Source: Oscillospiraceae bacterium (GTDB lineage Bacteria > Bacillota > Clostridia > Saccharofermentanales > Saccharofermentanaceae). From it: DNA of 35,812 bases. Both the position numbers and the translations under genes were made by a program. The notes beneath the pieces are model-generated. The model was not told the DNA's origin. It made no database searches and was given only the letters and a program-made list of their open reading frames with translations. The stretch is from the NCBI GenBank assembly GCA_902794115.1, contig CADBGD010000023.1:1-35812 (forward strand), in the 5' to 3' direction. Shown here one piece after another: positions 8,514 to 35,812 of this stretch (position 1 is the stretch's first letter; the number at the start of each line of letters is the position of its first letter).

Positions 8514-10961
8514 ATGTATACCACATTTGAAGAAGAGGCCAAGCGGAAATTAGTCCGCGGCCGCTCTCTTTCCATATTAGAGTATGACAAGATACTTGAC
8601 AGGCTCGTAAATCACGCTCGTACCATTTACGGGCGTGAACTTTGCTATGGGCTGCTCCCTACATCAGATAAGAAACTGGTGGAAGAATGGCAGCAGGAGA
8701 CACAGGATGCACTGGAGTTCCGGGTGAAGGAAGGTGCGCTTCCTTTAGGAGGTGTCAATGATATCCGGGACTGCGTGAAGTTTTCCGAGACCGGTGCGAC
8801 GCTTACCATGAAGCACCTTCTCTATATCGCCCAGTTTCTCCGCACCGTGGAGCGGCTTTCCCATGTGAAGGCGGAATCCCTTCAGGTGGATCCTATGGAC
8901 CACAGCCTTTTACGGGAACTGGGGCAGCTGATGCCGCTTTCCCATCTGGAAAAAGAGATCTCCTCGGCCATTACCGGGGAAAATGAGATGAATGACCGGG
9001 CAAGTAATGAGCTTTATGCCATCCGCCGCCAGATCCGGGAAGCCCAGAGCAGTATCCGTGAGATCCTGGAAAGACTGATCCGGAAGAATCCCCAGGCGCT
9101 TCAGGATCAGCTGGTCACCATGCGTGACGGCCGCTACTGCGTGCCGGTCAAGCCGGAAAAGAAAGGCGAAGTCCCCGGTGTCGTTCACGATACTTCTGCT
9201 TCCGGCCAAACGCTTTTTATCGAGCCGATGGCAGTGGTGGAACTGAATAACAAGATCCGGGAATGGACGGCTGCCGAGCAGGAAGAGATCAACCGCATCC
9301 TGGGCATTTTAAGCGGAAAAGTCGGCATTGAGAAGAGCTCGATCATGGCAGACATCGCATTGGTGGGCCATATCGACTTTATGCAGGCCAAGGCGGAACT
9401 GGCGCTGGAAATGGATGCGTCCCGTCCCCGTATGAATGAAGAAGGACGGATCGTCTTAAAGCGGGCCCGTCATCCGCTGATCGATAAAGACCGGGTCGTT
9501 CCGATCGAATTTTCCGTAGGTACCGAATACCGGACGCTGGTCATCACGGGACCGAACACGGGAGGAAAGACCGTATCTTTGAAGACCTGTGGCATCATCT
9601 CCCTGATGGCGATGGCGGGACTCTTTATTCCCTGTAAAGACGGCTCGGAAGTGTCGACTTTTACGAAAGTGTTGGCGGATATCGGTGATGAGCAGAGTAT
9701 CGAGCAGAGTCTTTCGACTTTCTCAGCCCATATGACCAATCTGGTCCAGATCCTGAAGCTGACCAAAGAGACCACACTGGTGCTGGTCGATGAACTGGGA
9801 AGCGGAACTGACCCGACGGAGGGCGCCGCATTGGCGATCGCGATCCTGGATGAGTGCAGAAAGAAGGGGGCTGTGACCGTTGCGACCACCCACTATAAGG
9901 AACTCAAGGCGTATGCGGTCGAGCAGGACGGCGTGGAGAATGCCTGCTGCGAATTTGATACCGAGACCTTGTCTCCGACATATCGTCTCATGATCGGTCT
10001 TCCGGGTGTTAGTAACGCATTCGTGATCTCCAGAAAACTGGGCCTTTCACCGAGGATCATTGAAAATGCCCAGAGCATCCTTTCCGAGGAGAGCCTGAAG
10101 GTGGAAGAACTTCTTTCTTCGGCGGAGCGTCATAACCGCGAAAGCGAAAAGCTCCAGCAGGAGATGGCGGATATGCGCGACCAGATCAAGAAACAGACCG
10201 AGGATCTGGAAAACCAGAGAAAGCAGATCGAAAAGGAAAGAAAACGCGTTCTTGCCCAGGCCAGGGAAGAAAAGCGGGAGATGCTGGAAGAGGTACTGGA
10301 AAAAGCCGATTCTCTTCTGGATGAGATCAAGGAACTGCAGAAGATGGAGAACTCCCACGAGGCGGAAAGAAAAGTCCGCGCCATCCGCAATAATCTTCGT
10401 GCCGGTCTTTCCGATATCGATGCGGAAGTGCCGGATGACGAGATTTCCGAAGTGCCCGGCGAAAAGCCGGAAGTGATCCGGGAAGGCGGCCTTTACTATT
10501 CTCCGAAACTGGATATTACCGGTATCGTGGTAAAGGGCCCGGATAAACAGAATAACTGCATCCTTTCTTCCGGAGCATTAAAGCTCACGGTACCTGCGGA
10601 TTCGCTCCAGTATCCGAAGAAGGAAGAAGTGAAAAAGAGCGCGAAAGGAAAGCGTGAACCAAAGCGTACGGCATCGGTATCCCGCGCCGAGCAGATCCGT
10701 CTTGCGAAGAAGTCCACCATGATGCCGGAGATCCAGCTTCTCGGCATGACGGTAGACGAAGCCCAGACAGCTCTGGACCGCTATTTAGATGATTGTGTGA
10801 TCAGTAATATCGAAAATGTCCGCATTGTCCACGGCAAAGGCACCGGCGCGCTGCGTTCGGCGGTGGACCAGTTCCTGAAAAAAGACCGGCGTGTCCGTTC
10901 TTACCGCTTAGGTACATTCGGTGAGGGCGAAGATGGCGTAACCATTGCGGAGCTTAGGTAA
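8514..10961 (+). CDS. mutS2: MutS2 family ATPase with C-terminal Smr domain
   Basis: An 815-residue MutS2, slightly longer than the usual ~785. It lacks the mismatch-recognition domains of MutS; the family has been linked to suppressing recombination and, in Bacillus, to rescue of collided ribosomes. Walker A is GPNTGGKT (residues 346-353), and Walker B is LVLVDE with D426 and E427. A long charged coiled coil (about 520-640) follows, then a KOW-like segment and the Smr domain (about 735-815) with HGKGTGALR at 773-781. The Smr LDLR motif is replaced by IQLLGM (740-745), so the acidic residue tied to nuclease activity is missing. AGAGGAA precedes the ATG, 12 bases after pfkA. Confidence 0.96.
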   Translation: MYTTFEEEAKRKLVRGRSLSILEYDKILDRLVNHARTIYGRELCYGLLPTSDKKLVEEWQQETQDALEFRVKEGALPLGGVNDIRDCVKFSETGATLTMKHLLYIAQFLRTVERLSHVKAESLQVDPMDHSLLRELGQLMPLSHLEKEISSAITGENEMNDRASNELYAIRRQIREAQSSIREILERLIRKNPQALQDQLVTMRDGRYCVPVKPEKKGEVPGVVHDTSASGQTLFIEPMAVVELNNKIREWTAAEQEEINRILGILSGKVGIEKSSIMADIALVGHIDFMQAKAELALEMDASRPRMNEEGRIVLKRARHPLIDKDRVVPIEFSVGTEYRTLVITGPNTGGKTVSLKTCGIISLMAMAGLFIPCKDGSEVSTFTKVLADIGDEQSIEQSLSTFSAHMTNLVQILKLTKETTLVLVDELGSGTDPTEGAALAIAILDECRKKGAVTVATTHYKELKAYAVEQDGVENACCEFDTETLSPTYRLMIGLPGVSNAFVISRKLGLSPRIIENAQSILSEESLKVEELLSSAERHNRESEKLQQEMADMRDQIKKQTEDLENQRKQIEKERKRVLAQAREEKREMLEEVLEKADSLLDEIKELQKMENSHEAERKVRAIRNNLRAGLSDIDAEVPDDEISEVPGEKPEVIREGGLYYSPKLDITGIVVKGPDKQNNCILSSGALKLTVPADSLQYPKKEEVKKSAKGKREPKRTASVSRAEQIRLAKKSTMMPEIQLLGMTVDEAQTALDRYLDDCVISNIENVRIVHGKGTGALRSAVDQFLKKDRRVRSYRLGTFGEGEDGVTIAELR

Positions 10962-10974
10962 CAGGAGGAAAGAT

Positions 10975-11664
10975 ATGGAAGAAGAAAAGAAAGTCCGTTT
11001 GTACGTTTTCGTAGGCGCATACGGAAGCGGAAAGTCTGAAGTTTCAGTGCATTTCGCGCATAAACTGAAAAAAGAGAATCCTGATGCGAAGGTGATGCTG
11101 GCGGATCTGGATATCGTCAATCCGTATTACCGTTCCGCCGATGCCAAAGAGGTCCTCGAGAAGGAAGGCATCCGTGTGATCGTGCCGGAATATGCCAATA
11201 CCAATGTTGATGTGCCGGCGCTTTCCGGTGAAGTCTATTCGGCCTTTGATATGCCGGATACCATCGCTGTCTTTGATATCGGCGGTGAGGATCTGGGAGC
11301 TCGAGTTCTGGGTGCGATGCTAAGCCGTTTCCAGAAGATCGAATACCGGGTCTTTATGGTCGTGAATGCGTTCCGTCCCTTTACTTCGGATGCGGAGAGC
11401 ATAAAGCTGATGGCCTCGGAGCTTTCCGAAGCGGCCAGGCTTCCGATCTCGGGCTTTATCAACAACTCCAACCTTCTGGAGGAAACAACAGAAGAAGAAC
11501 TGATCGAAGGGGAGAAGGTCCTTCTTTCGGCGCAGGAACTGACCGGGATCCCGGTGGTGTATCAGACAGGACTGGATCACGTTCTGCCTGAAAGCTGGAA
11601 GGAGAAAACCCCTTCCGGAATTCCGGTTCTGCGTATGGACCGTAATGTTCTATATAAATATTGA
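10975..11664 (+). CDS. P-loop ATPase, SIMIBI/MinD-like, unknown role
   Basis: The start at 10975 follows AGGAGG at 10963-10968; the longer in-frame start at 10945 lies inside mutS2 and lacks an RBS. The 229-residue protein begins with a strand leading into the Walker A GAYGSGKSE (residues 14-22), then an ADLDIVNPYYRS segment and a FDIGGEDLGA segment that resemble the switch and Walker B regions of MinD/CobQ-type NTPases. A later NAFRPF and GFINNSN pair fits nucleotide-base recognition in that class. No membrane segment is visible. It follows mutS2 by 13 bases and precedes the zinc-ribbon/SPFH genes, so it may belong to that group or to the mutS2 transcript. Its substrate is unknown. Confidence 0.85.
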   Translation: MEEEKKVRLYVFVGAYGSGKSEVSVHFAHKLKKENPDAKVMLADLDIVNPYYRSADAKEVLEKEGIRVIVPEYANTNVDVPALSGEVYSAFDMPDTIAVFDIGGEDLGARVLGAMLSRFQKIEYRVFMVVNAFRPFTSDAESIKLMASELSEAARLPISGFINNSNLLEETTEEELIEGEKVLLSAQELTGIPVVYQTGLDHVLPESWKEKTPSGIPVLRMDRNVLYKY

Positions 11665-11715
11665 CATAATGAAAAACGGTGTCCTTTTGAATAGACGGAG
11701 AAGGAGGAGAAGAGA

Positions 11716-12543
11716 ATGCCGGGTGGAATGATTGGAATCGGAATTTTAGTCGGAGGAGGACTTCTGGTCCTTCTGGGAATCGTGGCCGGAGTGCGGTCCG
11801 CCAAAAGAGCGTTCCGTAACTCGCTGGTAGGCCAGATCATGGAAGGGGTCAAGCAGGAAGTACAAGAGGGCAAAGTCGGCCCGGAGGACTTTAAGATGAC
11901 CCAGACCCTGGCCCAGCCGAAGTCCGTGTCGGATCTTTCCACTGCGCTGGTCCCGCGGATCAATAAAGACTTCCCGGATCTGAACCTTTCCCAGATGCAG
12001 AGCGCCGCCCAGGCGGTACTGGTCAAGAGCCTGGATCTTCTTTGTCAGATGACCTACGGAAACAACGGAGATACCATCGACCGGATCCGTGCGGAACTCG
12101 ACGGATGCGGCATCGGATGCACCCGTTCTCTGGCCGAAGAACTGTGGCATAAAGTGGAAGCAGCCAGGTCTGAAGGCAAATCTCTGGTTTACCGTGATGT
12201 AATTGTCCATAAAGGCGGAATTAACGAGTATCAAAAGACTTCTTCAACGGTGGAAATCACCTTCCAATATTCGTTACAATGTTTGCAATACCAGGAAAGA
12301 AATGGTAAATTTATATCAGGCAATCGAGCGACTCCGACACAGACCCGGTATAACGTAAAAGTAATTAACATTCTTGACGCTGACCGGTTTGCGTGGGAAG
12401 ACATTAAGGGAGTAGGTTTCACCTGTCCGCATTGCGGTGCCCCGGTCAAACATCTGGGAACAGATGTGTGTCAGTTCTGCGGAACGGCAATTAAGACAGT
12501 GGATATGCGAATCTGGCTTGTCGATAAGTTGATCGAGATCTGA
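11716..12543 (+). CDS. Membrane-anchored zinc-ribbon protein, possibly Tim44-like
   Basis: A 275-residue protein with a glycine-rich transmembrane helix at about residues 5-25, a soluble domain at about 70-230, and a C-terminal zinc ribbon with cysteines at 237, 240, 252 and 255 (CPHCG and CQFCG). The middle region (helices around DFPDLNLSQM and QSAAQAVLVKS, then beta strands) resembles Tim44-like domains; this is inference from pattern, not an alignment. AAGGAGGAG precedes the ATG. It lies directly upstream of an SPFH gene that also ends in zinc ribbons, suggesting a shared membrane-associated complex. The stretch 12190-12400 is AT-richer than the rest. Function unknown. Confidence 0.8.
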   Translation: MPGGMIGIGILVGGGLLVLLGIVAGVRSAKRAFRNSLVGQIMEGVKQEVQEGKVGPEDFKMTQTLAQPKSVSDLSTALVPRINKDFPDLNLSQMQSAAQAVLVKSLDLLCQMTYGNNGDTIDRIRAELDGCGIGCTRSLAEELWHKVEAARSEGKSLVYRDVIVHKGGINEYQKTSSTVEITFQYSLQCLQYQERNGKFISGNRATPTQTRYNVKVINILDADRFAWEDIKGVGFTCPHCGAPVKHLGTDVCQFCGTAIKTVDMRIWLVDKLIEI

Positions 12544-27955: not shown

Positions 27956-28387
27956 ATGGCTCGTTTCATGAACAAAATAGATGCAAAGGGAAGATTCTTT
28001 GTCCCGGCAAAAGCCAGGGATAAGATGGGCCCGCGCATGTTTGTGACCGTGAACCAGGACAAGAACTACCTGAGTGTTTACAGTGAAGCCCGTTTTCAGG
28101 AGATCGTGGACTCATTTAATGCACAGCCCATGACTACCCCGGAGATCCGAAACGCCAGACGTGCCATCTTAGGTGAAGCGCTGGAGTGCGAACTGGACAG
28201 CCAGGGAAGAATCTCCGTTACATCCGAGCTCTGGGAACGGATCGGAGCGAAGCCTTCGACCGAGATCTGCATTTATCAGTATGCGGACATGCTGGAAATC
28301 TGCACTTCGACCTACTACGAGTCCAGTAAGGGAGATGAAGCTGCCACAAGCTTCAGCCTGCAGGGTTATGACATCCGGGGATTGTAA
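27956..28387 (+). CDS. mraZ: Division/cell-wall cluster regulator MraZ
   Basis: A DNA-binding regulator of the dcw operon. The start at 27956 follows GGGGAG; a GTG six bases upstream would touch the RBS. The product has 143 residues, the family's standard length, and two SpoVT/AbrB-like repeats with the diagnostic DAKGRFFVPAKAR and DSQGRISVTSELW motifs. It is first gene of the cluster, behind a strong promoter and candidate MraZ boxes. The end overlaps rsmH by 20 bases. Confidence 0.97.
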   Translation: MARFMNKIDAKGRFFVPAKARDKMGPRMFVTVNQDKNYLSVYSEARFQEIVDSFNAQPMTTPEIRNARRAILGEALECELDSQGRISVTSELWERIGAKPSTEICIYQYADMLEICTSTYYESSKGDEAATSFSLQGYDIRGL

Positions 28388-29345
28388 TTTTCATCATCTT
28401 CCGGTCATGTTCCATGAATGCATGGAGGGCCTTGCGATCAAGGAAGACGGCGTGTACGTGGATTGTACGGCCGGTGGCGGCGGACATAGCTCCGGTATCG
28501 TCGCAAGACTGGGCGGCAAGGGGAAACTGATCTCCTTTGATAAAGACGATGAGGCGCTGGCAGCTTGCGAAAGAAGAAGAAGCGAGCTTGGCGCGGAAGA
28601 TAAGTGGGTGCTGGTGAAATCGGATTTTTCCCGTTTTGCCGAGGTACTGACGGAAATGAACATTGAAAAGGTAGACGGGGTGCTGGCGGATCTGGGCGTC
28701 TCTTCTCATCAGATCGATACGGCGGACCGGGGATTCTCCTACATGCAGGAAGGACCTCTGGACATGCGGATGAATCAGCAGCAGAAGCTGAGCGCGGAAG
28801 ATGTCGTAAACGAATACTCGGTGGAAGATATGACCCGTATTTTCCGGGAATACGGCGAAGAGAGATTCGCCGGAAGGATCGCATCGGCGATCGAGAAATA
28901 CCGGAAGACGACACCGATCCGGACCACCACGCAGCTGGCGGATCTGATCCGCAGTGCGATGCCCCATACCGCAAGAAAAGAGGATCAGCATCCGGCAAGA
29001 CGGTGCTTTCAGGCGATCCGCATCGAGGTCAATCACGAACTGGATTCGGTCTCGGATCTTCTGAAGAATGTGCCACCGTTCCTTGCTCCTCACGGCCGGT
29101 TCGCCGTGATCTCCTTCCACAGTCTGGAGGACAGACTGGTGAAGGAAGCCTTCCGGAAGCTGGAAAGCCCGTGTACATGCCCGAGAGAATTTCCGGTATG
29201 TGTCTGCGGGAAGCGCCCGATGGGAAAACAGGTCAATGCGAAGCCCATCGTCGCGAGTAAGAAAGAAGCATTGGAAAATAAACGTTCAGGCTGCGCCAAG
29301 CTGAGGGTGTTTGAAAGGAATGAAGAAGTATGGCTCTGGCAGTAA
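28368..29345 (+). CDS. rsmH: 16S rRNA m4C1402 methyltransferase RsmH (MraW)
   Basis: Methylates N4 of C1402 in 16S rRNA using SAM. The start at 28368, within the end of mraZ, is the only in-frame start that retains the conserved HLPVM segment and does not run through mraZ; its RBS is weak, so translational coupling is probable. The 325-residue protein shows VDCTAGGGGHSS (SAM loop), DKDDEAL, DGVLADLGVSSHQ, and the family-specific YMQEGPLDMRM segment and FQAIRIEVN. The end overlaps the ftsL-like gene by 16 bases. Confidence 0.96.
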   Translation: MTSGDCNFHHLPVMFHECMEGLAIKEDGVYVDCTAGGGGHSSGIVARLGGKGKLISFDKDDEALAACERRRSELGAEDKWVLVKSDFSRFAEVLTEMNIEKVDGVLADLGVSSHQIDTADRGFSYMQEGPLDMRMNQQQKLSAEDVVNEYSVEDMTRIFREYGEERFAGRIASAIEKYRKTTPIRTTTQLADLIRSAMPHTARKEDQHPARRCFQAIRIEVNHELDSVSDLLKNVPPFLAPHGRFAVISFHSLEDRLVKEAFRKLESPCTCPREFPVCVCGKRPMGKQVNAKPIVASKKEALENKRSGCAKLRVFERNEEVWLWQ

Positions 29346-29977
29346 AAATGACAAAGAAAGAAACATTGGATGCACTCTATCGAAGCACAGGTGCCGATTA
29401 TTCGATCGGTCTGAACCTGATGGCCTTTGATGATGGAGAAGCAGAGCAGTATATGAGCGCAATGGAACAGAGCACACCGGTACTTCGCCTTTCGAACGAA
29501 GAAAAGAAGAAGAAAGTCCGCGCCGAGAATAAGCGTGCGGTAGAAGCAGCATACGGCAATTTCCGCAAGAAGTCATTTTCCAAAACATTACGCCGTTTTC
29601 GCGACTTTATTTTCATCTCTTTCGCTATAGCTTTTGTCGCCTCGTTATTCGGAATGTTGGTGTATAATGAAGCACAGATTGCATCGATGAACTTTGCGAA
29701 TAATCAGAAAGAACAGCAGATCAATAAAATGCGTCAGGAGACATCCCAGCTGAAGGAGAGTCTCTTCGTAAATGCGGACCTGGAAGCGGTCCGGAAGGCT
29801 GCCACCCTGAACCTGGGTATGGTTGAGCCCAATGAGAAGCAGATCGTACGCGTGGTCGTCCCGTTCCGGGATCACCTGACCACGAACCGTTCTTATAACT
29901 CCGTCGGACTTTCCGAGGAGATCGTGGAAGAAGCCAAGCAGGATTTGGCAGATTATTATTCCAAAGCCGATGCCTGA
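29330..29977 (+). CDS. ftsL: FtsL-like divisome/cell-wall protein
   Basis: A 215-residue bitopic membrane protein between rsmH and the PBP gene, the position of ftsL in nearly all Bacillota. A long, charged, cytoplasmic N-terminal part (about 1-92) precedes one membrane helix (about 93-113, DFIFISFAIAFV) and an external coiled coil (QKEQQINKMRQETSQLKES). AAAGGA lies about ten bases before 29330; the ATG at 29348 lacks an RBS. FtsL is small and poorly conserved, so the call rests on topology and synteny. The cytoplasmic part is longer than usual (B. subtilis FtsL has ~35 residues there). Confidence 0.75.
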   Translation: MALAVKMTKKETLDALYRSTGADYSIGLNLMAFDDGEAEQYMSAMEQSTPVLRLSNEEKKKKVRAENKRAVEAAYGNFRKKSFSKTLRRFRDFIFISFAIAFVASLFGMLVYNEAQIASMNFANNQKEQQINKMRQETSQLKESLFVNADLEAVRKAATLNLGMVEPNEKQIVRVVVPFRDHLTTNRSYNSVGLSEEIVEEAKQDLADYYSKADA

Positions 29978-30012: not shown

Positions 30013-32982
30013 ATGGCTTCGAAGAAACGTAGAAATAGCGCCAACCGCCGACCAGGCCAGAATCCCGCACGGCCGGGCGCTTCACGCTCCTCAAATGGAA
30101 GAACGGTCCCTTCCGGATCTTCGAAAAGAACCAATGTATCCCGCTCATCCCTTTCCGGAAAGAATCTTTCTTCCCGGAAAAATCCGTCTTCACGTGTAAT
30201 TTATTCGGGAAAATCTGTCGCTCCGAAAGAACCGGTTCCTTCAGAAAAGAAGAATCCGGTCCTTCGTTCTGCCTCGGTCTATAAGCCGTATACTCCCTGG
30301 TTTGAAAGAAACCGCACACCACAGGAAGAAGCAGAGCAGGCGGCCAAGAGAAGAAAGATCCGGCTCTTTAAAAGAAGAGAGAAGAAGGTCGAAAAAGATC
30401 CTTCTCAGAAGCCGGAACTCAAAAAGATCGAGAACTATAACTACCAGGAAGAAGAAGAAAAGAACAGATTTGTTCCCGAGGTGCAGGAAGAGACGAAATC
30501 CGTGGGTTTCCGTATCGGCGGCCGTATCGTTCTGACGATGGTTTTTCTGGCCCTTTCCGCCTTTATGGCCTACCTTATTAAGGTGCAGTTCGATATTCAG
30601 GTCAACCGCTATGAGGAATATTCCCATAAGGCTTCCCAGATGCACTGGCAGCGTTTGAAAGATACTCCGTCCCGTGGCGACATTCTGGACCGAAACGGAA
30701 ATATTCTGGCAAGTACCACCTATGAGTACACCATCGGTATGACCCCGTCGGACGTCATTAAGTCCCAGGAGACGAAAAAAGAGCCCCAGAGTAATGAAAT
30801 GATCGCCGATGCCTTTTCCGAGATCATCGGGGTGGACCGGGAAGAGATGCTGACCTGGCTTTCCCAGGTGGATAAGCCCTATATCCAGGTCAAAAAGAAA
30901 GTGACTTACGAGCAGAAAAATGCCCTTCAGGCCTATATATCAGAACATGGCTTAGGCGGCATTAAGATCGATTCCGTGCCGAAGAGATACTATAACTACG
31001 GAAATCTCGGCGCCCAGGTCATCGGTTTTGCGGACCAGAATAACAACTCCCTCGTCGGCCAGTACGGAATCGAGGCCTACTATGACCGGTATCTGACCGG
31101 TACCGAAGGCTATACCTATGCCGAGGTGGATAACTACAACCAGAGTGCCCTTCCGTATTCCATCCCCACAAGTATCCAGGCGCAGGACGGCTATAACGTC
31201 CAGCTGACTCTCGACATGAATATCCAGCGTATTGCGGAAAATGCCTGCCGGGACGCCTATAACGAATATAAGCCGAAGGAAGGCGTGACCTGCATCGTCA
31301 TGGACCCGTACACCGGAGAGATCCTGGCCATGGTTTCCATGCCGGACTTTGACCTTAATACTCCGCGTGAAAAACCTTACGGCATGTCTGATGAAGAGTG
31401 GGCCAAGCTGAAAGACGAAGTGGTGGAGATCGGGGAAAACAAGATCGACGGCCAGTCCAACTACCTCATGAGCTCGGCATGGCGTAACCGCTGCATCTCC
31501 GATACCTACGAGCCGGGTTCCACCATGAAGGCGGTCACCACGGCGATTGCCCTGGAAGAAGGACTGACATATGAAGACGAGTATTTCGAGGACCTGCCTA
31601 TTGCGATCACCGAAGTCGATACCATCCGCTGCTGGCGTGAAAAGACAGAAGAAGGAAACCATGGCGTAGAGACCTTACGGGAAGCTTTCGAGCGTTCCTG
31701 TAACCCGATCTTCGTAAAACTTGCCCAGAGGATCGGCATCGATAAGTACTATGACTATATCCGTAACTGCGGTTTCTATGACCGTACCGGCGTTGACCTT
31801 CCGGCGGAAGGAAAAGGCATTTTCCACGAAAAGCCGACCGAGGTCGATATGGCAACGCTTTCTTTCGGCGAGTCTTCGACCGTGACGCCGCTTCAGCTGG
31901 TCACCGTGTATTCGGCACTGGTTAACGGCGGATCCCTGATGCGTCCGCATATCGCTTCCCGTGTCGTGGATTCCCAGGGAAATATCATCCGTGAATATGA
32001 ACCGGAAAAGATCCGTACTCTTTTCTCGGAAAAAACATCGGCCCGCGTCCGTTCTCTCCTGGAGGACGTAGTTAAGGCCGGTACCGGTGCCGCCGGTTAT
32101 GTTCCGGGCTACTATGTTGCCGGTAAGACCAGTACATCCACCATCGAAGTCGGTGACGATGCCGGTAAGCACGTTATCTCCTTCGGCTGCTATGCGCCGT
32201 CTTACGATCCGAAGATCGTGGTACTGGTGGTTATCAACAAGCCGGAAGATAACGATATCGGTTCTTCCGCCCCGGCGAAGGTTTCGGCCCGTATCGTGGA
32301 AGAGACGCTGGAATATATGGGCGTGAAGAGAAAACTCAGTGATGACGAATATGAGCGTATGCTTCTGGAGTTCCACGTTCCGGATGTGGTGGGCATGACC
32401 TATGGGGAAGCCAAGAAAGTCCTGACCGGGGAAGGCTATGTGGTAAAAGACGGTTCCGGATGGATGGATGACGATACCATTGTGGAGCGGATGTATTACG
32501 GTGAAGATGAGACTGTACTGAAGAATTCCACCGTCGTTCTTTTCGGCGAGGAGATCGCAGTAGAAGATATGCCGACCACCAAGATCCCCAGCTTCGACGG
32601 CATGAATATTATCGAGTGCATCCGTACTTCGAAAGAATACGGGATCAACTTTAAGATCGAAGGCAACATCAAGGGTGTAGTGGTATCCCAGAATCCGCCG
32701 GCCTCAATGGGTATGGAGGAACAGCAGCCGGATGACAAAGTCCCGCCGGATGAAAGCGACGAGACTTTGGAGGAAGACGGCACCACGGGCGAGGAGGGTA
32801 CCTCGGAGACACGCCCGCCTGATGAAAACGGAGAAAGTGACATCGGGGATGATAATGAAAACTCCGAAGATAACGAGAACGGAGAGGGCGAAGGCGAAGG
32901 AGACGAAGAAACTTCCGAGACCACGCCACCGCCGCCGACAGATCTTCCTTACGGAAGTGTGATCGTTCTGAAAATGGAGTAA
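30013..32982 (+). CDS. Class B penicillin-binding protein with PASTA domains (SpoVD/PBP2B-like)
   Basis: A transpeptidase that cross-links peptidoglycan at the septum or in spores. The 989-residue protein has a very basic, Ser/Arg/Lys-rich cytoplasmic tail (1-~170), one membrane helix (~172-192), the PBP dimerisation domain, and a transpeptidase domain with SxxK at S503-K506 (STMK, S503 nucleophile) and SCN at 562-564. The third motif, normally KTG, is KTS (705-707). Two PASTA-like repeats (~788-900) and an acidic Glu/Gly/Asp-rich tail follow. PASTA domains bind peptidoglycan. SpoVD and PBP2B cannot be separated without a tree. RBS (AAAGGAA) is distant from the ATG. Confidence 0.93.
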   Translation: MASKKRRNSANRRPGQNPARPGASRSSNGRTVPSGSSKRTNVSRSSLSGKNLSSRKNPSSRVIYSGKSVAPKEPVPSEKKNPVLRSASVYKPYTPWFERNRTPQEEAEQAAKRRKIRLFKRREKKVEKDPSQKPELKKIENYNYQEEEEKNRFVPEVQEETKSVGFRIGGRIVLTMVFLALSAFMAYLIKVQFDIQVNRYEEYSHKASQMHWQRLKDTPSRGDILDRNGNILASTTYEYTIGMTPSDVIKSQETKKEPQSNEMIADAFSEIIGVDREEMLTWLSQVDKPYIQVKKKVTYEQKNALQAYISEHGLGGIKIDSVPKRYYNYGNLGAQVIGFADQNNNSLVGQYGIEAYYDRYLTGTEGYTYAEVDNYNQSALPYSIPTSIQAQDGYNVQLTLDMNIQRIAENACRDAYNEYKPKEGVTCIVMDPYTGEILAMVSMPDFDLNTPREKPYGMSDEEWAKLKDEVVEIGENKIDGQSNYLMSSAWRNRCISDTYEPGSTMKAVTTAIALEEGLTYEDEYFEDLPIAITEVDTIRCWREKTEEGNHGVETLREAFERSCNPIFVKLAQRIGIDKYYDYIRNCGFYDRTGVDLPAEGKGIFHEKPTEVDMATLSFGESSTVTPLQLVTVYSALVNGGSLMRPHIASRVVDSQGNIIREYEPEKIRTLFSEKTSARVRSLLEDVVKAGTGAAGYVPGYYVAGKTSTSTIEVGDDAGKHVISFGCYAPSYDPKIVVLVVINKPEDNDIGSSAPAKVSARIVEETLEYMGVKRKLSDDEYERMLLEFHVPDVVGMTYGEAKKVLTGEGYVVKDGSGWMDDDTIVERMYYGEDETVLKNSTVVLFGEEIAVEDMPTTKIPSFDGMNIIECIRTSKEYGINFKIEGNIKGVVVSQNPPASMGMEEQQPDDKVPPDESDETLEEDGTTGEEGTSETRPPDENGESDIGDDNENSEDNENGEGEGEGDEETSETTPPPPTDLPYGSVIVLKME

Positions 32983-33003: not shown

Positions 33004-34539
33004 ATGAAAGCACGGGATCTATTGGATGGATTGAATTTCAAGTGCATTTCCGGCGACCTGAATATCAATATCGATAAGGTGGTGCTGGATTCCCGGCAGG
33101 TCGTACCCGGTACGGCCTTCGTGGCCATGATCGGCCAGAAAAGCGACGGACATAAGTATCTGGAGAAAGCCGCCGGACAGGGTGCTTCCCTGATCGTGGT
33201 GGATGAAAGAAAATATAGTGAATGCGAACAGACGATCAAGTCGATCCTCGACCAGTATCAGGTGGCCGTGATCGTGGTGGACGATTCCCGTGCGGCCTTT
33301 TCCGACCTGTCCTGCCGGTTCTTCGGCCATCCTTCCAAGGATATGACCATGATCGGCATTACCGGCACCAAGGGAAAGACCACATCGACATATATCGTCA
33401 ATGCGATCTTAAATCACTCCGGCAGAAAATGCGGCCTGATCGGTTCAGTGGAGAATAAGTACGGCGGCTTTTGTGAAAGATCGGCCCATACCACTCCGGA
33501 AGCATGGGAATTCCAGGAGCTTCTTTCCGACATGAAGGAGGATCAGGTGACCCACTGCGTGATGGAAGTCTCTTCCCTCGGACTGAAGTTCGACAGAACA
33601 GATAATGTAAAGTTCGAAGTGGCGGTGTTTACGAATTTTCTGAATGACCATATTTCTCCGGAAGAGCATCCGACGGAAAAAGATTATTTCGACAGCAAGA
33701 TCAAGCTCTTTACCCAGAGCCGTCTGGCCCTGATCAATAAAAACAGCAACCATTTCGACGACATTGCATCTGAAGCAGGAAAATACTGTGAAAAGGTATA
33801 TTCCTACAGCTTCACCCAGCCGGCGGATTTCTATGTGAAGGAATATCACTCCACCGTTAAAGACGGGATCCCCGGAATGTCCTTTACCTTTGTCACACCG
33901 ACATATGAGTCGGCCATGTTCATCCCGCTGATCTGTGACTTTAACGTGGACAATGCCCTTTGTGCGGCAGCGACCGCCTATCTTCTGGGCGTTACTCCGG
34001 AAGAGATCCTGGACGGCATGCAGGATGTCAGGGTTCCTGGCCGTATGGAAAAGATCGATAATGACCTGGGACTTCAGATCTATGTGGACTATGCCCATAA
34101 CGGCGACAGCCTGCGGGTGCTGCTCCAGGCCCTGCGGCGTGTCTGCAAAGGCCGCATTATCACGGTATTCGGCTGCGGCGGCGACCGTCCGACAGACAGA
34201 AGATATACCATGGGCGAGATGTCCGGTCGATATAGCGACATCACCATCGTCACCACAGATAACTCCCGAAGCGAAAGCTTCAGCGTGATCTCCGGCATGA
34301 TCGTGGAGGGCATCAAGAGAGCGCCCGATAACCCGGAATACTGCGTGATCGAAGATAGAAAAGAAGCCATCCGGAAGGCCATTGAAATGGCGACTGAAGA
34401 AGATATCGTCGTCATTGCCGGAAAAGGCCATGAGCTTACCATGGAGATCCAGGGAACAAAGGTCCGCTTCGTGGATGCCGAAGAAGCTTCCGATGTGATC
34501 AGAAAACTGGAAGCGGAAAGAAAGGGGAACGAAGCATGA
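33004..34539 (+). CDS. murE: UDP-MurNAc-tripeptide synthetase MurE
   Basis: Adds the third amino acid to UDP-MurNAc-L-Ala-D-Glu in the cytoplasm. The 511-residue protein has the Mur ligase P-loop GTKGKTTS (~residues 120-127), the HTTPEAWEF substrate segment, K232 in YFDSKIKLF (the carbamylated lysine), NALCAAATAYLLG and the GRMEKID segment. The amino-acid selectivity motif, usually DNPR for diaminopimelate, is DNSR (419-422). The conserved Arg suggests that a diacid such as meso-DAP is still used, but this is inference. GGAGGGG precedes the ATG; the stop overlaps murF (ATGA). Confidence 0.95.
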   Translation: MKARDLLDGLNFKCISGDLNINIDKVVLDSRQVVPGTAFVAMIGQKSDGHKYLEKAAGQGASLIVVDERKYSECEQTIKSILDQYQVAVIVVDDSRAAFSDLSCRFFGHPSKDMTMIGITGTKGKTTSTYIVNAILNHSGRKCGLIGSVENKYGGFCERSAHTTPEAWEFQELLSDMKEDQVTHCVMEVSSLGLKFDRTDNVKFEVAVFTNFLNDHISPEEHPTEKDYFDSKIKLFTQSRLALINKNSNHFDDIASEAGKYCEKVYSYSFTQPADFYVKEYHSTVKDGIPGMSFTFVTPTYESAMFIPLICDFNVDNALCAAATAYLLGVTPEEILDGMQDVRVPGRMEKIDNDLGLQIYVDYAHNGDSLRVLLQALRRVCKGRIITVFGCGGDRPTDRRYTMGEMSGRYSDITIVTTDNSRSESFSVISGMIVEGIKRAPDNPEYCVIEDRKEAIRKAIEMATEEDIVVIAGKGHELTMEIQGTKVRFVDAEEASDVIRKLEAERKGNEA

Positions 34540-35812
34540 GTCAGTTTACACTTCAGGAAATACTGGACGCCACAGGAGGTGAACTCCGTCAGTTTACGGC
34601 GACAGAAGAATATTCCGATCCGTCATCTTTCCCGATCCGGGAGGTGTCGACCGATACCCGTACCATCGAAGAGGGAGACCTCTTTCTTGCCCTTCGCGGC
34701 GAGAAGTTTGACGGTCACCAGTATGCGGTGGCGGCAGTCAACGACGGAGCGAAGGCCCTGGTCCTGGATTCGATGGCGCAGGCGCCGGAAAATGTACCTG
34801 TGGTCCTGGTGGAGGATACGAAACTGGCCCTGGAGCAGATCGCGGCCTGGTACCGCCAGAAACTGGGCTGCACGGTCATTGCCGTGACCGGAAGCGTAGG
34901 AAAGACTTCCACAAGAGAGATGATCTCCTGCGCGCTTTCCACGTCTTTCCGCGTGGCGGTGACGAAGAATAACGAAAATAACGAGATCGGCCTGAGTAAG
35001 ACGATCCTGGCCGCGCCGGAAGATACAGAAGTTATCGTTCTGGAAATGGGCATGCGTCTTCGCGGCGAGATCTCCGAACTTACCCATATCGCCCGTCCGG
35101 ATGTGGCCGTGATCACGAACGTGGGCGTGGCGCATATCGAGAGACTGGGCACCCAGGAAAACATCCTTCTTGCGAAGCTGGAGATCATCGAAGGCTTAAA
35201 AGAAGGGGGACTTCTGATTCTGCCTTACGGCGATCCGCTTCTTCGGGATGCGGTGAAGCGCGGCCTCATAAGAAAAGACGTGAAAGTCGCCTATACCTCC
35301 ATCGGGAAGGTGGATTTCCCGACCCGCCCCGTAGGCATGGCGGTGGCCGACGACGTCAAGACCGGCGGTGGACAGGTGCGTTTCACGGCGACAGCGGGAT
35401 TCGAGGAATACAAGGATGTGGATATCCTTCTGAATGTCGTAGGTGTGCATCATGTGGGAAATGCACTGGCGGGGCTGCTTTGCGGTTTCTACCTGAATGC
35501 GGATGCGAAGAAGATCGCAGAAGGCGTCCGAAACTTTATGCAGGTGGGAAGAAGAGAGTGCCTTCTGAAAGTCGGCGATATCCAGTTCCTGGATGATTCT
35601 TATAACGCCGGACCGGAATCCATGATGGCGGCGTTTGCGTCGATCCGGCACATTGCGGGAGAGAAAAAGGCCTATGCCTGCATCGGCGATATGCTGGAGC
35701 TGGGGCCGGTGGCGAAGCAGAAACATTTCGAGATCGGAAAGCGCGCTGCGGAATTAAAACTTGACGCATTGCTGATCATCGGCGACTATAAGGAGGATGT
35801 CATGACGGGTGC
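34536..35812 (+). CDS. murF: UDP-MurNAc-tripeptide-D-Ala-D-Ala ligase MurF (5' part)
   Basis: Adds D-Ala-D-Ala to the UDP-MurNAc-tripeptide. The frame runs open off the window end, so about 425 residues are visible and the C-terminus is missing. Motifs: VSTDTRTIEEGDLFLAL (Mur N-terminal domain), P-loop TGSVGKTST (118-126, where TGSNGKT is more usual), NNENNEIGLS, LEMGMRLRGEI, and ITNVGVAHIERLG. DDSYNAGPESM is near the visible end. It overlaps the murE stop by ATGA and continues the dcw operon. Confidence 0.96.
   Translation, partial: MSQFTLQEILDATGGELRQFTATEEYSDPSSFPIREVSTDTRTIEEGDLFLALRGEKFDGHQYAVAAVNDGAKALVLDSMAQAPENVPVVLVEDTKLALEQIAAWYRQKLGCTVIAVTGSVGKTSTREMISCALSTSFRVAVTKNNENNEIGLSKTILAAPEDTEVIVLEMGMRLRGEISELTHIARPDVAVITNVGVAHIERLGTQENILLAKLEIIEGLKEGGLLILPYGDPLLRDAVKRGLIRKDVKVAYTSIGKVDFPTRPVGMAVADDVKTGGGQVRFTATAGFEEYKDVDILLNVVGVHHVGNALAGLLCGFYLNADAKKIAEGVRNFMQVGRRECLLKVGDIQFLDDSYNAGPESMMAAFASIRHIAGEKKAYACIGDMLELGPVAKQKHFEIGKRAAELKLDALLIIGDYKEDVMTG

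Follow-up and report, generated by a model that had tools for sequence, protein, structure and literature searches.

Contacts between MurE ligases and meso-DAP have been ascribed to the Asp, Asn and Arg of the DNPR motif and not to its Pro, and functions are given for Asp413, Asn414, Arg416 and Glu468 of the E. coli enzyme (PMC3829189). The same work reports on mutants of the L-Lys-adding MurE from S. aureus: Asn407Ala has no activity, and Pro408Ala has a kcat/Km for L-Lys of 0.091 instead of 8.787 s-1 mM-1, a loss of approximately 97-fold, with the P408A enzyme still lysing E. coli in vivo after a delay. A change at motif position 3 therefore has consequences in the S. aureus Lys enzyme at least. 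Meso-DAP is stated for Bacillus and Clostridia species in PMC4015370. Full-text searches on MurE with DNPR and with DNSR returned the latter motif only in plant (conifer) MurE-like proteins and gave no study of a MurE with Pro changed to Ser. MurE installs residue 3 of the cell-wall peptide, usually diaminopimelate (DAP). We describe here a clostridial MurE with DNSR from a gut bacterium, which is a real but modest variant of the enzyme.

The murE gene and its genomic setting

The window, i.e., the whole stretch of 35,812 nucleotides that was analysed, shows an ordinary dcw gene order, with murE located between a penicillin-binding protein gene and murF (Table 1). Also present are uvrB, dnaE, pfkA, mutS2, thrS, nusA, infB, truB, ribF and a rodA/ftsW-type gene. 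The source assembly consists of 210 contigs, and the genome is about 90% complete. The closest named relatives are MAGs, namely Ruminococcaceae bacterium RUG14762 (94% identity; the RUG prefix presumably denotes a rumen MAG series) and a goat omasum MAG (61%). As separate observations, the SpoVD/PBP2-like protein is 989 aa long, carries a long acidic low-complexity tail (ESDIGDDNENSEDNENGEGEGEGDEE...) and stays under the curated cut-offs of all 25 families listed, and the region 10945-12543, between mutS2 and thrS, holds two ORFs (239 and 275 aa) with no NCBIfam match at E 1e-30.

Table 1. Positions of the dcw genes and of the MurE motifs in the window
Feature	Position	Strand	Basis
rsmH	28173..29345	+	TIGR00006 367.7 vs 154.3; marker of normal dcw cluster
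FtsL-like protein	29330..29977	+	TIGR02209 E 1.1e-5, under cut-off
SpoVD/PBP2-like penicillin-binding protein, directly upstream of murE	30013..32982	+	TIGR02214 454.8 bits, under 688 cut-off
murE ORF, 511 aa	33004..34539	+	Translation; TIGR01085 423.7 bits vs cut-off 257.3; NF001126 450.5 vs 373
GGDR (392-395)	34177..34188	+	R395 on E. coli R389
DNSR (419-422)	34258..34269	+	On E. coli DNPR 413-416 (PDB alignment)
F426	34279..34281	+	Pro in 51/51 same-family comparison rows (DNPRxExP)
GKGHE (473-477)	34420..34434	+	E477 on E. coli E468
T479-M480	34438..34443	+	Tyr-Gln in 51/51 same-family comparison rows
murF, start overlaps murE end by 4 bases, runs off window	34536..35810	+	TIGR01143 336.7 bits vs 288.6

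The translated murE ORF contains ...TIVTTDNSRSESFSVI..., and the protein is clearly a member of the MurE family, passing the TIGR01085 cut-off. A preliminary description of this DNA had read D-N-S-R at residues 419-422 with SES next, and the translation agrees, residue numbers included; the span given there for the motif, 34255-34275, is one codon off, as the codons GAT AAC TCC CGA begin at 34258 and DNSRSES, with which the motif runs into SESF, ends at 34278. In phmmer alignments, DNSR falls on the DNPR of the MurEs from E. coli (7b6o) and M. tuberculosis (2wtz). Judged by the literal DNPR string as the mark of a meso-DAP-adding MurE, the window protein falls outside, and it is therefore described here as a protein working like a DAP-adding MurE.

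An AlphaFold model built from 38 aligned sequences (mean pLDDT 94.3) confirms the MurE fold at the level of predicted structure. In the model, the motif lies in the loop following strand 413-416, and helix 426-438 begins where the family's other MurEs carry Pro. A Foldseek search placed the M. tuberculosis and M. thermoresistibile MurEs on top (TM about 0.8), followed by a MurE-like protein of plastids and the S. aureus MurE (ranks 9-10); as the Lys-adding S. aureus enzyme also ranks high, the fold does not decide the substrate.

Distribution of the DNSR motif

Each of the 23 genomes of the genus, our own included, has exactly one match to the window MurE at E <= 1e-40, and all 23 carry DNSR, with identity down to 54%. 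Outside the genus, a MurE match was obtained for 89 of 92 genomes of the same family, and the motif was read in 51 of the 89 (52 rows, one gene being present twice), giving 50 DNPR and a single DNSR (L083, from genome G071). Further out in the order, 16 of the 18 rows read in family f4 have DNPR, the other two being EDNR (L110) and EDCR (L112), and none of the 17 rows read in families f2 and f3, at 29-35% identity to the window MurE, has DNPR. Three of four more named relatives have DNPR and one has DDPR. A class/phylum sample of 99 rows, picked among the matches listed and biased to canonical MurEs, contains 96 DNPR and one each of DNCR, DNPI and DNPA, and no DNSR. The preliminary description was right that Pro of the motif is replaced and Arg retained; Asn is retained as well, and the combination is unusual. 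Given its presence in 23/23 genomes of the genus and its scarcity elsewhere, DNSR is a variant that is rare overall and fixed in this clade. A FastTree tree of 194 rows, made with the motif columns excluded, separates the genus from all other rows by a branch of support 100; on it, Pro loss needs three changes: in the genus, in L083 and in L204.

Retained and altered residues of the pocket

Residues R395, D419, N420, R422, G473 and E477 are each retained in 23/23 genus rows, 51/51 family rows and all 16 f4 rows compared, a set that leaves out the divergent f4 rows L110 and L112. They correspond to R389, D413, N414, R416, G464 and E468 of the E. coli enzyme, where R389 and G464 are ones we take to have roles at the DAP site. 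Within the genus, P421S is accompanied by P426F (22/23), Y479T (23/23) and Q480M (23/23), while same-family rows outside it have Pro, Tyr and Gln at these three positions, in 51/51 cases each.

The other two cases of Pro loss, L083 and L204, are likewise without Tyr at 479. Over 196 rows (L101-L119 left out), Tyr is absent in 27/27 rows without Pro and in 3/169 rows with Pro, and on the 194-row tree these Pro and Tyr losses amount to 3 and 6 changes, respectively. A crude count gives 2.4e-5 for the association when Pro-bearing rows are treated as independent; an independent-pairs test found just two pairs on supported branches, mostly in the expected direction and too few for significance, and both L083 and L204 sit on long branches. 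Moreover, the 19 left-out rows show no link between the two positions, as Tyr occurs in two of the seven Pro-less rows (L101 and L102) and in two of the twelve that have Pro (L106 and L118). The sequences thus hint at a joint change of the motif loop and the loop after GKGHE, in which the latter may compensate for the lost Pro; with only two independent pairs and no link in the 19 divergent rows, loop compensation stays at the level of a hint.

DAP supply and ligase class

In the genome under study, dapF (C11:12611-13462) adjoins dapL (C11:13491-14666), and lysA is found on contig C105. Across the genus, dapF is present in 22/23 genomes, dapL over cut-off in 22/23 and lysA over cut-off in 20/23; genus member G001 has neither a dapF match nor a dapL match over cut-off. 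FemAB is absent from our genome and from 22/23 of the genus, with two weak fragments in G017. Bridge-forming enzymes of the FemAB type are typical of many Lys-type walls, albeit not universal. The check for a second MurE proposed in the preliminary description yielded none in the approximately 90% complete genome (TIGR01085 search); the other TIGR01085 matches, considered as candidates, proved to be MurF, MurC, FolC, MurD and, under its cut-off, a MurT-like protein.

Among the ligase models, the window MurE passes the DAP-ligase equivalog NF001126 (Table 1), fails the second DAP equivalog NF001124 (432.2 vs 476) and fails the L-Lys ligase model NF010628 (331.1 vs 536). Absence of the motif Arg, an L-Lys trait as in the DNPA of S. 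aureus, is not seen, R422 being present in 23/23. As NF001126 also accepts L083 (413.1) and NF001124 is failed, the equivalog models are no proof of substrate. Overall, the doubt raised earlier about the choice between DAP and another diamino acid is mostly not borne out: no second MurE turned up, dapL, dapF and lysA are present, the DAP-site residues that were compared are kept, NF001126 is passed and NF010628 failed, and FemAB hardly occurs in the genus.

Divergent MurEs within the order

Families f2 and f3, which belong to the same order, supplied a contrast set of nine genomes (completeness 68-93%); in eight of them, all but G115, the motif was read, and it is non-DNPR throughout. No dapF was found in any of the nine, including all eight with a read non-DNPR MurE, and FemAB occurs in 6/7 f2 genomes (5/6 with a read non-DNPR motif) and in 0/2 f3 genomes. 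With non-DNPR motifs and dapF in 0/9, real motif loss accompanies loss of DAP epimerase within the order, and the DNSR genus departs from that pattern. The f2 and f3 genomes appear to be lineages of the Lys or Orn type within an order rich in DAP-type MurEs. The motifs in rows L103-L119 (f2 and f3, apart from L110 and L112 of f4) include DDPG, EDPR, DCPY, DNPD, DNPG and DNSS. In L101 and L102 (genomes G159 and G160), QHSR replaces DNPR and TGLGRT replaces the GKGHE motif, with no dapF and no FemAB match.

The DNSR protein of G071 (L083:311-1873) is a long-branched MurE with GGGR for GGDR and KVQ after KGHE. The whole G071 genome gave no dapF match; lysA is present, at 60.6% identity to the genus lysA, and only weak dapL-like matches were obtained in the 1.25 Mb examined of about 2.2 Mb. 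This MurE is a possible second, independent pocket change. As DNSR coincides there with no detectable dapF, an altered substrate is possible somewhere, and MurEs outside the genus, such as that of G071, may have one. Two further observations concern single sets of rows. L204 (G563:C12) is a second MurE-like gene (DNCR, GCVGER) in a genome that also has a canonical MurE (L203). TGA recoding, considered for eight MurE rows flagged with one TGA (L045-L052), was rejected, as these ORFs end in an ordinary C-terminal TGA crossed by the alignment.

Interpretation of the DNSR variant

Based on these results, the window MurE most likely adds meso-DAP in the ordinary way and has pocket loops of a form specific to its clade (P421S together with P426F, Y479T and Q480M). 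Motif position 3 would give the loop its shape and would not make contacts. Ser would have taken the place of Pro in the ancestor of the genus, alongside P426F in the same loop and Y479T and Q480M just past GKGHE; Asp, Asn and Arg would have been left in place, holding the amino and D-carboxylate groups of DAP. The data show the motif, its fixation across the genus, the retained contact residues, a single MurE as far as found and the DAP-pathway genes; a preference for meso-DAP and a compensation of the lost Pro by the accompanying changes are inferred.

It is unlikely that MurE of the genus has instead switched, or broadened, to another diamino acid (L-Lys, L-Orn, LL-DAP or lanthionine), with P421S, P426F, Y479T and Q480M re-tuning the pocket. 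The four fixed or nearly fixed changes do flank two pocket loops, and DapF matches are missing from the other DNSR genome, G071, and from the eight order genomes whose MurE was read as non-DNPR; however, Arg422 is retained throughout the genus along with the rest of the pocket residues compared, DapF is kept in all but one of its genomes, and FemAB is weak in 1/23 of them vs 5/6 f2 genomes with a read non-DNPR MurE. A more specific form, that the DAP pocket of the genus was rebuilt by changing two loops as one unit (P421S/P426F and Y479T/Q480M) and that MurE would accept other or wider third residues, e.g., LL-DAP or modified DAP, is quite unlikely as well; if true, it would imply a non-standard rumen peptidoglycan, with G071 as a second, independent case.

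The motif change could also be neutral drift, with neither effect nor compensation. Pro supplies no contact among those ascribed to the motif, and the S. aureus P408A enzyme is active enough in vivo for delayed lysis of E. coli (PMC3829189). Nevertheless, the in vitro cost of P408A given there is about 97-fold, Ser is fixed in the genus despite identity down to 54%, and it is retained in both TCN and AGC codon forms (TCC 17, TCG 4 and AGC 3 in 24 rows, from the 23 genus genomes and one named MAG). Retention of Ser across a switch of codon class favours the view that this residue is kept by selection, and drift is very unlikely. Finally, an error of sequencing, binning or reading frame, which a source assembly this fragmented might suggest, is refuted by the same DNSR in 23/23 genus genomes and identical residues in two named MAGs, with the frame intact, and its probability is practically negligible.

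Read as a DAP-adding enzyme, the DNSR MurE provides a natural, genus-wide counter-example to the literal DNPR string as a test for DAP-type peptidoglycan. In addition, the genus separates the contact residues (Asp, Asn and Arg) from the scaffold residue (Pro), and its MurEs form a natural set for probing the coupling of the motif loop with the loop after GKGHE. Outside MurE annotation, the significance is small unless the substrate turns out to be different.

Comparison with known MurE enzymes

E. coli MurE (1e8c and the 7b53 series) and the window MurE have in common the fold, the P-loop, Asp-Asn-x-Arg, GGDR and GKGHE, and differ in that the E. coli enzyme has DNPR and DYQ after KGHE, whereas the window MurE has DNSR and LTM. 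The DAP-adding MurE of M. tuberculosis (2wtz, 2xja) is the best PDB sequence match and also gives the top structural matches, with 34% identity in the latter; there, DNPR is followed by E-D-P, whereas here DNSR is followed by E-S-F. S. aureus MurE (4c12, 4c13) shares the MurE fold but is L-Lys-adding, with DNPA and hence without the motif Arg that the window MurE has (PMC3829189). The same DNSR is reported for conifer MurE-like proteins, in a few Pinaceae (PMC9434261) and in podocarps (PMC12681378), but these are plant proteins. MurE of Thermotoga maritima (4bub) resembles the window MurE in having an altered motif with Arg retained, and it uses DAP in vitro; its motif, however, is DDPR, in which Asn and not Pro is changed, and L-Lys and D-Lys are added in vivo (PMC9434261).
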